Positions 7,537 through 36,358 of a stretch of 39,032 nucleotides of DNA are shown one piece after another (the first letter of the stretch is position 1; each line of letters opens with the position of its first letter). The notes beneath the pieces were generated by a model that did no database searches, was not told the origin of the DNA, and saw only the letters and a list, made by a program, of their open reading frames with translations. This stretch comes from Deltaproteobacteria bacterium (GTDB lineage Bacteria; Desulfobacterota; BSN033; UBA1163), in NCBI GenBank assembly GCA_018333535.1, contig JAGXTA010000085.1:1-39032 (forward strand), written 5' to 3'. The position numbers and the translations under genes are program-made.

Positions 7537-7615
7537 GATATGTGGAGAGAATAACCAATAACCAAAGAGATCTTATGTTTTAAGGTGAATAGAAAGATTT
7601 TTTCAAAATAACCCA

Positions 7616-7648
7616 CCGTTCACCCTGAGGCTCTCGAAGGGTGAACGG
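7616..7648. repeat. REP-like palindrome upstream of the GIY-YIG gene
   Basis: Perfect 11-bp arms CCGTTCACCCT and AGGGTGAACGG enclose GAGGCTCTCGA. The 23-nt core recurs exactly in inverse orientation at 7974-7996, across the stop codon of the nuclease gene. A diverged family member forms a doublet at 28474-28558. Confidence 0.85.
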
Positions 7649-7697
7649 TAACAGATCGAGCTTCTGAGGGCTGACGGAAGCAAGGGGTAACAGGGAT

Positions 7698-7997
7698 ATG
7701 AGTTTTTGGGTATACATTCTACGATGTGCTGATAACTCCTATTACACCGGTCATACAGATAATCTTGAGGAGCGGATAGCAAAACATCAATTGGGTGAAA
7801 TTGAAGGTTATACTTCAACCCGACTTCCGGTAAAACTGCTCTTTTCAGAAGAATTTCCCACTCGGGATGAAGCATTGGCCTGTGAGCAACAGGTTAAAGG
7901 TTGGAGTCGGAGAAAAAAAGAAGCAATGATGCAGGGAGATTGGGTGGAGGTATCCCGATTGGCTCGCCGATATCACCCTTCGAGAGCCTCAGGGTGA
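7698..7997 (+). CDS. GIY-YIG nuclease family protein (YhbQ/UPF0213-like) between inverted repeats
   Basis: 99 aa, a single GIY-YIG domain. Signature pieces are WVYILRCADNSYYTGHT (the V-Y-I...Y-T-G strands), LEERIAKHQLGE with the catalytic-type Arg, and EALACEQQVKGWSRRKKEA with the metal-binding Glu. Single-domain members are generally of unknown function, and some are structure-specific nucleases. The last codons (HPSRASG and stop) are encoded by an inverted REP-like repeat whose partner lies 49 bp before the start. The gene interrupts the otherwise compact TPR-extension ATPase junction. The pattern suggests insertion of a nuclease-plus-repeat unit (inference). Confidence 0.87.
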   Translation: MSFWVYILRCADNSYYTGHTDNLEERIAKHQLGEIEGYTSTRLPVKLLFSEEFPTRDEALACEQQVKGWSRRKKEAMMQGDWVEVSRLARRYHPSRASG

Positions 7998-8020
7998 ACG
8001 GTGTAGCGCTTTTAGCGCTA
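7973..8020. repeat. REP-like repeat at the 3' end of the GIY-YIG gene plus TAGCGCT hairpin
   Basis: CACCCTTCGAGAGCCTCAGG and following bases (7974-8001) are the inverse of the upstream copy. They encode the last residues and stop of the nuclease. Immediately downstream TAGCGCT-TTT-AGCGCTA forms a 7-bp hairpin that could stop or stabilise the transcript. Confidence 0.75.
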
Positions 8021-14449: not shown

Positions 14450-14833
14450 TTACCATGTGGTGTTTAAGGCAGTGAATGTTCCATAAGTTGTTGGCGCTTG
14501 GAGCGTTACCGGTGAAAGAGTAAAGGTGTAAACATTGCCTCCTGCTGTCATCGTGAAATTGGTGTCATTATAGGTGAAGGAGACTCCCTGTATGCCTGCA
14601 TTGTTAACGACTACTGTCATTGTATATGCTGCAACCGTCCCTTTTATCAGACGGTCAGCAAAAACAATCGAATTGGCGCTCCTCAAACTGCCCAAAACCC
14701 CTCTTGCAGTGGCATTGGCTGCATCCTGGGTTAAATCGAGGTATCTCGGAATGGCCACAGCTGCCAGGATACCAATGATGACAATGATGATGACCAGCTC
14801 AATCAATGTAAAACCTTTCTGATTTCTTTGCAT
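14450..14833 (-). CDS. Type IV major-pilin-like protein (first of array, MshA-like)
   Basis: 127 aa: leader MQRNQK, G/F cleavage site, mature FTLIELVIIIVIIGILAAVAIPRYLDLTQDAANATARG with Glu at +5. The region LDLTQDAANATARGVLGSLR parallels the MshA pattern. The C-terminal half is rich in Thr and Asn, giving many possible O-glycosylation sites beside a glycosyltransferase pair. It is first in the minus-strand run, with a TTGACA promoter 40 nt upstream and RBS GGAGGTG. 33 nt separate it from the second copy. Confidence 0.9.
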   Translation of the reverse strand: MQRNQKGFTLIELVIIIVIIGILAAVAIPRYLDLTQDAANATARGVLGSLRSANSIVFADRLIKGTVAAYTMTVVVNNAGIQGVSFTYNDTNFTMTAGGNVYTFTLSPVTLQAPTTYGTFTALNTTW

Positions 14834-14872: not shown

Positions 14873-14901
14873 TTTTTACAGAAACAGAGCATCTTTGTCA
14901 A
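14873..14901 (-). promoter_or_regulatory. Sigma-70-type promoter for the pilin array
   Basis: On the minus strand, TTGACA (14901-14896), 17 bp, TAAAAA (14878-14873), about 40 nt before the first pilin ATG. The -35 sits in TCTTGACAAAG, found at the same distance from an identical repeat end in front of vapBC. Confidence 0.6.
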
Positions 14902-14910
14902 GACTTTTAT

Positions 14911-15083
14911 TAGAGATTTCTGAAAAAGTCCTGAAATCTCTGATTACATTGATTAAGGACCGATTACACAGATAAGAAATTTATGGGGAATCAATAAAAT
15001 CTGTGTAATCTTTTTTGAAATCCCTGCCTGCGGTAGGCAGGTGTGCAATCAAGAGAGCGTATAGTCGTTTTTCAGAGCTCTCT
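14911..15083. repeat. Long copy of AGAGATTTC/GAGCTCTC-ended repeat (MITE-like)
   Basis: One end reads, on the minus strand, GGACTTTTTCAGAAATCTCT; the other end is AGAGAGCTCTGAAAAAC. The inner part contains a GATTACACAGAT/ATCTGTGTAATC palindrome and the CCTGCCTGCGGTAGGCAGG hairpin, apparently nested. The short copy is at 35607-35685. It fills most of the 263-nt spacer between xdhC and the pilins. Confidence 0.8.
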
Positions 15084-15096
15084 ATTAAAGCAATAT

Positions 15097-16188
15097 TTAT
15101 GCCAATCTTTCCCTTCTTTTCATAATAAGTTGTGCTGCAATGCTTACAGCAATCTCTTCAGGTGTTTCAGAGTGAATGTCGAGCCCGATAGGGGCATGAA
15201 CCCTATCCAGGCCCCCCCTTGAAATCCCTTTCTTTAACAAATTTTGGTAAAGGGTCTGAATCTTTTTCTTAGAGCCGATCATCCCTATGTATCGGGCATC
15301 CGTTTTGACCGCCATCTCCAGAATTAGCCCATCGTAGAGGTGGCCCCGTGTGACAATGACAATATAGCTGGAGTTATCGATTGTGATTCGTTCGAAAGAT
15401 TTCTTAAAATCTGAAACAATGATCTCATCCGCCTCAGGAAATCGATCCCGATTGGCAAACATCTCCCGGTCATCAATGACCACCGTTTTGAAATGAACCT
15501 TTTTTACAAGGGGAACCAACTGCTGAGAAATATGGCCTGCCCCAAAGATATAGACCGTCGGTTCTGAAATGATGGGCTCCAGCAGGATCTCTATTTTCTT
15601 CCAGGGACGACCTGCCTCCTCAGAACTTATGACCAATACCTCTAACTTCCTCTCTCTCAACACCCTCTCTGCCTCTCCCAAAATCCTTTCTCCCAGGTCC
15701 TTTCCCCAAAAAAGTGAGCCGGTCTTTTCTCCGGATGCCTTTATGAATTCCTTCACACCCTCCATCTTTGGGAAAACGCCATCCACAGAGATAACTGTTG
15801 CCAGAATTCCTGATCCCCCTTGTTGTCTGACCTTTAACACCTCCCGATAGATATTTAAGGAGTCCTCCATGATGGGTTCTAAAAAAATATCGATATTCCC
15901 CCCGCAGATGAGCCCCCCTTCTGCAAGTTGCTCAGAGGTTAAGTTAAAATGAAGAACATTCCCTTCTCCCTTCTCCATCGTCTTTCTGGCTTCCTGCCAT
16001 ACATCGGCCTCAACACATCCCCCTCCGATTGAACCGATTGTAGTCCCATCTTTCTTGACCAGGTATTTCGCACCCGCTTCCCTCGGAGCGGAACCCACAC
16101 GGTTGATAATGGTGGCCAGCGCCAGCTTCTCCTTTCTTTCAAGACCTTTGACTATTTCAATAAAGATGTTTTTCATAGCCTTCTTCAT
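15097..16188 (-). CDS. xdhC: XdhC/CoxI-family molybdenum hydroxylase maturation protein
   Basis: 363 aa with both family domains. The N-terminal part has GSAPREAGAKYLVKKDGTTI, GSIGGGCVEADVWQEA and GGLICGGNIDIFLEP; the C-terminal Rossmann part has VYIFGAGHISQQLVPL, VVIDDREMFANRDRFPEA, YIVIVTRGHLYDG and YIGMIGSKKK. XdhC-type proteins bind molybdenum cofactor and load or sulfurate it for xanthine-dehydrogenase-like enzymes. It is the last gene of a minus-strand run that also contains YqeB, YqeC and a MocA-like protein, so it likely serves a selenium-type Mo hydroxylase encoded elsewhere. An alternative start at 16176 has a nearby AAGG. Confidence 0.9.
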   Translation of the reverse strand: MKKAMKNIFIEIVKGLERKEKLALATIINRVGSAPREAGAKYLVKKDGTTIGSIGGGCVEADVWQEARKTMEKGEGNVLHFNLTSEQLAEGGLICGGNIDIFLEPIMEDSLNIYREVLKVRQQGGSGILATVISVDGVFPKMEGVKEFIKASGEKTGSLFWGKDLGERILGEAERVLRERKLEVLVISSEEAGRPWKKIEILLEPIISEPTVYIFGAGHISQQLVPLVKKVHFKTVVIDDREMFANRDRFPEADEIIVSDFKKSFERITIDNSSYIVIVTRGHLYDGLILEMAVKTDARYIGMIGSKKKIQTLYQNLLKKGISRGGLDRVHAPIGLDIHSETPEEIAVSIAAQLIMKRRERLA

Positions 16189-32721: not shown

Positions 32722-33864
32722 ATGAAATTCATTTTCAGGAATTGGTTAAAGTTCTTATGGGCGATCATTCTTACTATCTTGATACCATCTTTGTCCATCT
32801 CCTCAGAACTGACTCCCATTCAAACTCCCTCCACCGGATACCAGCCACAGTTTCAGGTCTCAGGAAATAAGATTTATTTTGTATGGCACGAATATGATGG
32901 ACCTTTTCGCCAGATCTTCACGGCGGAGATGAGTCTGGATGGAACAGGATGGAAGGCAGAAAAGAGGACATCCGGTCAATATGACAAAGTATTCCCTCAA
33001 CTTCACGTGGTAGATAACAAGATTTATTATGTTCGTCAACAGCCCGATGCAACTAAAAATCGTCAGATCTGGACCATGGAGATGAACAAAGATGGAACGG
33101 GATGGAAAGAAGTTCAGAGAACGAACCCCCCTTTTGACAAACAATTCCCTCAATTACAGGTGATGGATAAAAAGATTTATTACACCTGGAATGAATTAGA
33201 TGGGAAAAACCGGCAAATCTGGACCGCTGAGATAAATGTGGATGGAACAGGCTGGAATATGGTCAAACGGACTACAAGCCCTTTTAATAAATATGAACCC
33301 CAACTTCAGGTCGTGGGAGATAAAATTTATCTTGTCTGGAGGGAGTTTAATGGATCCCATTTCCAAGTCTGGACGGGCGTGATGAACCGGGACGGAACAG
33401 GATGGGAGGCTGTAAAACGGACAGCCACCCCCCAGGACAAGCACAATCCCACGTTTAAGGTAGATGAAGGGAAAATCTATTTCACCTGGCATGAAGCGGA
33501 TGGGCCGGATTGGCGAAAAGCCAGATACCAGATATGGACAGCCCAAATGAGCATAGACGGAACGGGATGGCAGGCGATTCAAAGGACCAACACTCCTTTC
33601 GATAAATACACCCCCCAGTTACAGGTTTACGGCGAAAAAGTCTACTATGTCTGGGAGGAGTCGGATGGTAAATATCGTCAGATATGGACCGCTGTAGTAA
33701 ATAAAGATGGTACAGGATGGGGGGCTGAAAAACGGACGAGATCACCCTACGGGAAATATGATCCCCAGTTCCAGATCCTTGGAAATAAGGTTTATTATGT
33801 CTGGCATGAGGATCATGGACCCACAGAGCCCATCTTTGTGTCCATAGAGAACCTGACTTTTTAA
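32722..33864 (+). CDS. Secreted seven-repeat beta-propeller-like protein
   Basis: 380 aa. N-terminal signal (about 1-28). It then has seven repeats of about 50 residues on the theme PQ-LQV-x-KIYYVW-E-DG, RQIWTAEM and DGTGW-xx-KRT. The KIY.VW strand occurs seven times (KIYFVWHEYDG, KIYYVRQQ, KIYYTWNE, KIYLVWRE, KIYFTWHEADG, KVYYVWEE, KVYYVWHE), fitting a seven-bladed propeller. The DGTGW motif recurs six times. Exact function unknown; propellers of this sort bind proteins or glycans. RBS AAGGAGG. Confidence 0.75.
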   Translation: MKFIFRNWLKFLWAIILTILIPSLSISSELTPIQTPSTGYQPQFQVSGNKIYFVWHEYDGPFRQIFTAEMSLDGTGWKAEKRTSGQYDKVFPQLHVVDNKIYYVRQQPDATKNRQIWTMEMNKDGTGWKEVQRTNPPFDKQFPQLQVMDKKIYYTWNELDGKNRQIWTAEINVDGTGWNMVKRTTSPFNKYEPQLQVVGDKIYLVWREFNGSHFQVWTGVMNRDGTGWEAVKRTATPQDKHNPTFKVDEGKIYFTWHEADGPDWRKARYQIWTAQMSIDGTGWQAIQRTNTPFDKYTPQLQVYGEKVYYVWEESDGKYRQIWTAVVNKDGTGWGAEKRTRSPYGKYDPQFQILGNKVYYVWHEDHGPTEPIFVSIENLTF

Positions 33865-35520: not shown

Positions 35521-35606
35521 ATGCCCTCCTTTCTCTTTTTAATGTTATTTAATCTTATAACATTGAATTCACTCTAAGACAAGTTAAATTTGGAATAGCA
35601 CTTAAA

Positions 35607-35685
35607 AGAGAGCTCTGAAAAACTATCTTTTGCTATCTGATTTCACAGATTATCAGAGATTTCTGGACTTTTTCAGAAATCTCTA
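35607..35685. repeat. Short copy of AGAGAGCTCTGAAAAAC...TCAGAAATCTCTA repeat
   Basis: Left end AGAGAGCTCTGAAAAAC, right end GGACTTTTTCAGAAATCTCTA. Same ends as 14911-15083 but with about 80 bp in total. Its right end abuts the vapBC promoter; TCTTGACA follows at the same spacing as in the pilin promoter. Confidence 0.8.
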
Positions 35686-35694
35686 AAAACACTC

Positions 35695-35722
35695 TTGACA
35701 AAGGAATATTTCAGCATATAAT
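35695..35722 (+). promoter_or_regulatory. Consensus sigma-70 promoter for vapBC
   Basis: TTGACA (35695-35700), 16 bp, TATAAT (35717-35722): both hexamers perfect. The RBS AGGAGG is at 35735-35740. Such TA operons are usually repressed by the VapBC complex at this site; a nearby operator was not identified. Confidence 0.8.
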
Positions 35723-35748: not shown

Positions 35749-35982
35749 ATGCGTGCAACATTAAACATACCTGATGATCTCCTTTCCGAGGTGCAAAAAA
35801 TATCAGGTGAAAAATCAAAGACAAAAGCCATTACTACAGCCATGGAGGAATTCATCAAACAGAAAAAGATCAAAGAACTAATTGCCCTTAAAGGCAAGGT
35901 TCGAATCGACTACGATTGGGAAAAAGAAGAAGAACTTGAAATGAAAGCCCAAAAAAAGAGGGAGAAGCTCCTTGAAAAATAG
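35749..35982 (+). CDS. vapB: VapB-type antitoxin
   Basis: 77 aa. N-terminal ribbon-helix-helix type region MRATLNIPDDLLSEVQKISG, then SKTKAITTAMEEFIKQKKIK, as in the VapB/DUF2191 antitoxins that go with PIN toxins; the tail is charged (KEEELEMKAQKKREKLLEK) and would wrap the toxin. Start 35749 has AGGAGG at eight bases; a GTG at 35740 is in frame but lies on the RBS. Its stop overlaps the toxin gene. Confidence 0.85.
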   Translation: MRATLNIPDDLLSEVQKISGEKSKTKAITTAMEEFIKQKKIKELIALKGKVRIDYDWEKEEELEMKAQKKREKLLEK

Positions 35983-36358
35983 AATATTGGCTGACACAAC
36001 CGCCTGGATTGAGTTTTTCAGGGGAAAATCAAAAGTTGCAGACCGTTTTGAAATGCTCCTCATAGAAAATGCCGTCTGCACATGCGGAGTTGTAATGTTC
36101 GAGGTTCTCCAAGGGATAAAGTCAGAAGGTGAAAAAAATAAAATTTTAAGCATCTTGGCAACCCTGCCATATTTTGAGATGATGAAAAAACTCTGGCAAA
36201 GCGCTGCGGAGCTTTCCCTATCGTTGAAAAAGAATGGCGTCAATCTGCCTTTGTCCGATATTTTGATTGCCGCCATTGCCGTTGAAAATGACCTCTCTAT
36301 CTACACCCTCGACAACCACTTTACCCTAATCCCCAATTTAAAACTCTATTCTTTTTAA
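35972..36358 (+). CDS. vapC: VapC-type PIN-domain toxin
   Basis: 128 aa. PIN nuclease acidic residues: Asp8 in ILADTTAWIEFF, Glu in VVMFEVLQGIKS, Asp in LPLSDILIAAIAVEN and Asp in YTLDNHFTLI. PIN toxins of this class cut RNA (tRNA or rRNA) when the antitoxin is lost. Probable start is TTG at 35972, overlapping the vapB stop by 11 bp. The pair sits next to a repeat, as mobile TA modules often do. Confidence 0.85.
   Translation: MKNRILADTTAWIEFFRGKSKVADRFEMLLIENAVCTCGVVMFEVLQGIKSEGEKNKILSILATLPYFEMMKKLWQSAAELSLSLKKNGVNLPLSDILIAAIAVENDLSIYTLDNHFTLIPNLKLYSF

Follow-up and report, generated by a model that had tools for sequence, protein, structure and literature searches.

Known targets of bacterial transposons include attTn7, dif sites, REP hairpins and terminators. 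REP and BIME palindromes are moved by Y1 (RAYT) transposases, and Y1 transposition produces no target-site duplication (TSD). In yeast, the LTR retrotransposons Ty3 and Ty1 target Pol III promoters. The ISAjo2 group of the IS1202 family ('dif site hunters') generates a 5-bp TSD and targets a position 5 bp away from where XerC binds in dif; direct contact with XerC is suspected (PMC10132070). Correia, MITEAba12 and BrickBuilt are described, in the passages of a 2024 review of prokaryotic MITEs cited here, as elements with an internal promoter; the same passages describe an intergenic preference and no promoter-targeted insertion (PMC10969869). The cited part of a study of multicopy intergenic palindromes in Geobacter likewise describes no promoter register (PMC2996986). 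The open-access literature, to which our search was confined, yielded no report of a bacterial element whose position with respect to core promoters is exact to the base pair.

Here we describe a repeat present twice in a 39,032-nt stretch of DNA (the window) from a member of the Desulfobacterota, once upstream of a type IV pilin-like gene and once upstream of vapBC (Table 1). The sequence-only reading proposed that the repeat carries, or inserts next to, a −35 box, forming a portable outward promoter that might wire these genes together. Both element ends, both TCTTGACAAAG sequences and the −10 hexamers were present, with the TTGACA boxes at the positions given. The ends themselves, originally placed at 14911 and 35685, were corrected to 14913 and 35683, the next five bases in each case being the TSD.

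Table 1. Coordinates of the two element copies, their TSDs and the adjoining promoters and genes in the window
Feature	Position	Strand	Remarks
Element copy 1, 170 bp, long form	14913..15082	−	ends set by 5-bp TSD
Copy 1 left end GAGAGCTCTGAAAAACGAC	at 15082	−	
Copy 1 right-end hairpin	14913–14941	−	
Copy 1 TSD TAATA, promoter side	14908..14912		minus-strand reading
Copy 1 TSD TAATA, far side	15083..15087		
Host −35 box TTGACA, promoter 1	14896..14901	−	11 nt from TSD start
−10-like hexamer TAAAAA, promoter 1	14873..14878	−	17-nt spacer; fits family pattern
Type IV pilin-like gene (N_methyl)	14450..14833	−	downstream of promoter 1
Sigma54-like promoter TGGCATAAATATTGCT	15089..15104	−	1 nt past far TSD of copy 1
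Element copy 2, 76 bp, short form	35608..35683	+	
Copy 2 left end GAGAGCTCTGAAAAACTAT		+	
Copy 2 right-end hairpin	35655–35683	+	
Copy 2 TSD TAAAA, far side	35603..35607		
Copy 2 TSD TAAAA, promoter side	35684..35688		
Host −35 box TTGACA, vapB promoter	35695..35700	+	
−10 box TATAAT, vapB promoter	35717..35722	+	16-nt spacer
vapB antitoxin (PF09957)	35749..35982	+	
vapC PIN-domain toxin (PF01850)	35972..36358	+	

Structure and distribution of the repeat family

The repeat is a MITE, that is, a non-autonomous, non-coding DNA transposon. It is short (60 to about 190 bp in the family; 76 and 170 bp in the window), has inverted ends GAGA..TCTGAAAAA with the terminal inverted repeats GAGAGCTCTGAAAAAC and GAGATTTCTGAAAAAG, occurs in many copies and leaves precise empty sites. 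In the window, the arms at 14893–14944 and 35652–35703 are 92% complementary, and the hairpin core is matched twice against an expectation of 0.04. Copies were collected with the 30-nt right-end hairpin as pattern, allowing at most three mismatches. The 4.4-Mb draft source genome yielded 49 copies and a reversed-pattern control none; together with 114 from its genus and, in a few cases, from other phyla this gave 163 copies, all from draft MAGs. Seven of nine genus relatives, which are Thermodesulfobacteriota/Deltaproteobacteria MAGs, contain 3–25 copies and the other two contain none, and a single copy was found in one family-level relative. The copies sit in intergenic DNA. Exact hairpin matches also occur in contigs assigned to WOR-3, Stahlbacteria and Omnitrophota, for which misbinning is possible; most of the copies from other phyla (L161, L165, L170, L171, L184, L194) have TTGAC(A/T) next to them, in the register described below. 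A search of Rfam with the element gave no match, and the element was not found in PLSDB or IMG/VR.

Hairpin stems in L161 and at the left ends of L036, L073 and L139 vary in sequence yet remain self-complementary, as in the WOR-3 stem GAGGGTGCTG...CAGCACCCTC, which suggests that structure may matter. Solo 30-bp hairpins are present at L085, L062, L108, L133 and L021/L102, at the same distance from TTGACA, and some begin at a stop codon. One promoter was found in two states, beside a solo hairpin or a full element (L085 versus L090/L146). This promoter is common to several genomes and has an AT-rich, palindrome-like spacer, TTGACAATAATAATTCTAATATGATAATTATTC, that recalls a Fur box.

No transposase gene with MITE ends was found in the draft genome among 11 DDE_Tnp_1 and 25 Y1 matches (10 Y1 loci were examined), and there were no rve matches. 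Pairs of ends lying 0.7–3.5 kb apart in the loci enclose what appear to be host genes, and no transposases. The genome does carry IS1380, IS1634 and IS1182 genes and many Y1 genes. One IS1380 copy (L249) is flanked by the AT-rich 5-bp TSD TAATA; derivation of the MITE from IS1380 was nevertheless rejected, because the ends of L249, CCTGAATTTTGC, differ and the other IS1380 genes lack matching ends. A broken IS1182-family element (L252:10-1700) has ends AAGGTGTGAAAAAATT and a 5-bp TSD, CTCAG. Similar ends bound a MITE-like sequence (L223) on the contig of genome G007, at the place where the vap genes are missing. Y1 (IS200-like) transposase genes in L051 and L053 lie between inverted ends GGGGTCAGCCCTTGACATT / GGGGTCAGGCTTGCAAT and form a separate family; in one case these ends contain CTTGACA.

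The window holds two further kinds of repeat. An ORF at 32722–33864 encodes a repeat protein and contains six imperfect 47-nt repeats (32908–33722, period about 150 bp), and two 31-nt sequences that form a perfect inverted repeat, CACCGTTCACCCTGAGGCTCTCGAAGGGTGA, lie 328 nt apart at 7614–8003.

Position of the element relative to host promoters

The element is flanked by an AT-rich TSD of 5 bp. Among 109 copies readable at both ends (110 in the tally of left and right ends below), the flanks are identical in 45 and have at most one mismatch in 72, compared with about two identical pairs expected by chance from shuffled pairs. Both window copies have perfect TSDs. On one side, TTGACA lies 9–13 nt from the start of the TSD in 58 of the 109 copies, and at exactly 11 nt in 40, whereas only 1.1% of random AT-rich intergenic WWWWW sites have TTGACA at 9–13 nt. 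The geometry is symmetric on either side: TSD (5), 6 nt, TTGACA. Measured from the hairpin, TTGACA starts after 10 nt in 11 of the 49 copies in the source genome, with no other offset represented by more than two copies; elsewhere it starts after 10 nt in 28 of 114 copies and after 8–11 nt in 48, 9 nt being second commonest. Copies without TTGACA at the offset, named in the sequence-only reading as grounds for refutation, do exist and refute an element that carries a −35 box.

The left end (GAGAGCTCTGAAAAACTA) also faces TTGACA outward, 11 nt from GAGAG. In 110 copies an exact TTGACA is faced by the left end in 27, by the right end in 34 and by both in two. As a single outward promoter can stand beside either end, TTGACA cannot be part of the element. 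It lies outside the TSD, and the 10-nt linkers that separate it from the element end are unrelated among copies. TTGACA is scarce at 14–19 nt and beyond 25 nt. A secondary peak one helical turn away (20–24 nt) was set aside, local tandem duplication after insertion being likely in at least two cases (compare L021 with L102, and L136 with L046). Two other repeat types served as controls and had no TTGACA nearby, with only 11 and 22 ends available.

About 40–45% of copies have no TTGACA at either end, and 37 of the 109 have neither TTGACA nor a one-mismatch box at either end; the copies lacking TTGACA include many with a perfect hairpin. Either the targeting is a strong preference or a second mode of insertion exists. 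Copies without TTGACA are often followed immediately by a Shine-Dalgarno sequence, with either end facing it (L094, L113, L117, L121, L087, L070), and left flanks adjoin Shine-Dalgarno sequences in L003, L011, L042, L072 and L147, as though the element also made use of another type of functional boundary.

Some copies are orthologous, and the 87 promoter-side ends represent 78 distinct promoters. Across these 78 unrelated sequences, −10-like hexamers are overrepresented at a spacer of 17 nt, where 16 have a −10 within one mismatch; most other spacers have 0–2. A −10 within two mismatches was found for 83% of the element-adjacent intergenic TTGACAs versus 57% of the others at the same loci (Fisher p=1.3e-4). 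The −10 sequences are often weak, and no promoter evidence was seen at the opposite ends of the elements. Judged by these sequence features, the element-adjacent TTGACAs are −35 boxes of predicted sigma70 promoters with real −10 boxes.

Base-precise empty sites were obtained at three loci (pilin, L007 and L017). At the pilin locus, five genus relatives without the element carry CTTGACAAA at the same place and retain the TTGACA of promoter 1. At L007, relatives have tttcaaggAGAAAtgttttTTGACA and the source genome has AGAAA-element-AGAAA-tgttttTTGACA; L017 shows the same arrangement in several relatives, but the source genome is one linker base short. In genome G002 the element is absent and vapB has a TTGACA-17-TATATT promoter, the far upstream region being different. 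Since relatives without the element already have the TTGACA promoter, this promoter belongs to the host and is older than the insertion, and the −35 box is neither carried nor made by the element. Insertion next to a −35 box, one of the two options originally offered, is therefore upheld and carriage of one is not. The pilin and vapBC genes were confirmed, but they are not wired together by a common promoter derived from the repeat.

The sigma54-like motif TGGCATAAATATTGCT is the only one in the window; six genus relatives have it conserved in front of their pilin gene. Copy 1 stands between this motif and the sigma70-type promoter with its pilin gene, so a transcript from a sigma54 promoter would pass through the hairpins of the element.

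Origin of the register

We consider, with a probability of about 0.85, that the element is a MITE inserting in fixed register about 11 bp upstream of pre-existing sigma70 promoters, and that insertion itself determines this register. A transposase acting in trans would make a staggered cut at an AT-rich 5-bp target, with duplication of those 5 bp. For about half of the insertions, this target stands in one register to a sigma70 promoter that was already there, which puts the cut at about −46 to −42, and the element can enter in either orientation. The transposition complex would read the promoter and thereby impose the register; what it reads would most likely be RNA polymerase-occupied or otherwise promoter-specific DNA, or alternatively the −35 sequence itself. 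Such a targeting habit may have been retained because it leaves both coding sequence and the core promoter unharmed. Any effect on host genes would be at most indirect, through loss of the sequence upstream of about −46 and the presence of a hairpin beside the promoter.

The timing is suggested by the state of the TSDs. Among copies with TTGACA, the distance is exactly 11 nt in 21 of 24 with a perfect TSD, 10 of 16 with one mismatch and 9 of 21 with two or more, while the fraction of copies beside a promoter is constant across TSD classes (0.49–0.59). As perfect-TSD copies are the sharpest and older copies are blurred, the register was probably set at insertion and not by selection for spacing.

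It is possible, though doubtful, that the transposase recognises TTGAC(A/T) itself and that promoters are struck merely for containing it. Hexamers at the register are nearly all TTGACA (59) or TTGACT (8), and the share of TTGACA is higher than in natural promoters (p=0.007). However, these two hexamers also predominate among natural promoters in the genus, so hexamer exactness alone cannot separate reading of the sequence from reading of the promoter, and its use as proof of the former is weakened. Bare sequence recognition also does not predict the better −10 boxes near the element, which favour recognition of the promoter or polymerase.

Random insertion followed by selection is unlikely. 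In that case the element end would act as an operator, UP-like element or insulator, useful only about 46 bp upstream of the start. The distance fits a class-I-like activator position and the element ends are strong hairpins, but spacing is sharpest in the copies with perfect TSDs, the opposite of what selection for spacing would give, the promoter fraction is no higher with age, two different ends can each face a promoter, and some 78 unrelated promoters would each require a beneficial insertion. Purifying selection alone, with copies lost wherever they hit coding sequence, a core promoter or a ribosome-binding site, is very improbable: it agrees with the intergenic location and with the subgroup abutting Shine-Dalgarno sequences, but predicts a one-sided cut-off, whereas the observed peak is 1–3 bases wide and TTGACAs are few at 14–19 nt or beyond 25 nt, which contradicts it as sole cause. 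Least credible is the portable promoter of the sequence-only reading, in which a −35 box at the element end turns downstream sequence into a promoter: the TTGACA distance is fixed in about half of the copies, but the box is missing from about half, perfect hairpins included, lies outside the TSD beyond unrelated linkers, adjoins the two ends in a mutually exclusive manner, and is already present in the orthologous, element-free promoters at pilin, L007 and L017, which refutes this reading for those three loci.

Other definitions of the element were also rejected. TGTCAA...TTGACA as the true termini (5′-TG...CA-3′) is present at both ends in only 2 of 110 copies, and lies outside the TSD. A right end of the IS200/IS605 type, cleaved at TTGAC, is ruled out by the 5-bp TSD, the unrelated linkers and the proper −10 boxes.

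Should bound RNA polymerase determine the register, transposition would be tied to transcription initiation in bacteria. The element would then offer a natural tool to tag the promoters that are active in uncultured genomes, and its insertion would be one way for a promoter to be insulated and cut off from upstream control. Even simple −35 recognition would amount to a safe-harbour strategy, already documented by testable insertion polymorphisms.

Comparison with described elements

The IS1380 copy L249, in the same genome, resembles the MITE in its AT-rich 5-bp TSD and differs in its ends and in the absence of TTGACA at the register. The Geobacter palindromes are likewise palindromic, intergenic and multicopy, and occur in related proteobacteria. 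REP and BIME sequences are also short, hairpin-rich intergenic repeats, and Y1 genes are numerous in this genome; however, the MITE has a 5-bp TSD, and its ends do not flank any of the 10 Y1 loci that were examined. Correia-like MITEs are similar as short, non-coding, intergenic inverted-repeat elements beside genes, but they carry their promoter, whereas here the promoter is owned by the host and predates insertion.

By analogy rather than membership, the ISAjo2 group is the closest parallel. It shares the 5-bp TSD and the fixed short distance from a site, which in ISAjo2 is bound by a host protein. ISAjo2 elements end in 5′-TGT...ACA-3′ and always insert in one orientation, at dif/pdif; the MITE ends in 5′-GAG...CTC-3′ and inserts in both (27 left-facing, 34 right-facing), at sigma70 promoters, in a genome in which no rve-type transposase was found. 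As the ends and the orientation rule differ, the MITE is not an ISAjo2 member.

Ty3 and Ty1 resemble the MITE in that insertion is positioned relative to the transcription start. The transcription machinery sets the position of Ty elements, whereas here the element is a bacterial DNA transposon and involvement of the polymerase is only inferred. We tentatively suggest, at a little short of even odds, that the MITE belongs to a transposon family that recognises sigma70 RNA polymerase-occupied promoters, inserts about 46 bp upstream of the start as a counterpart of Ty3, and has spread between phyla (Desulfobacterota, WOR-3/Stahlbacteria and Omnitrophota).
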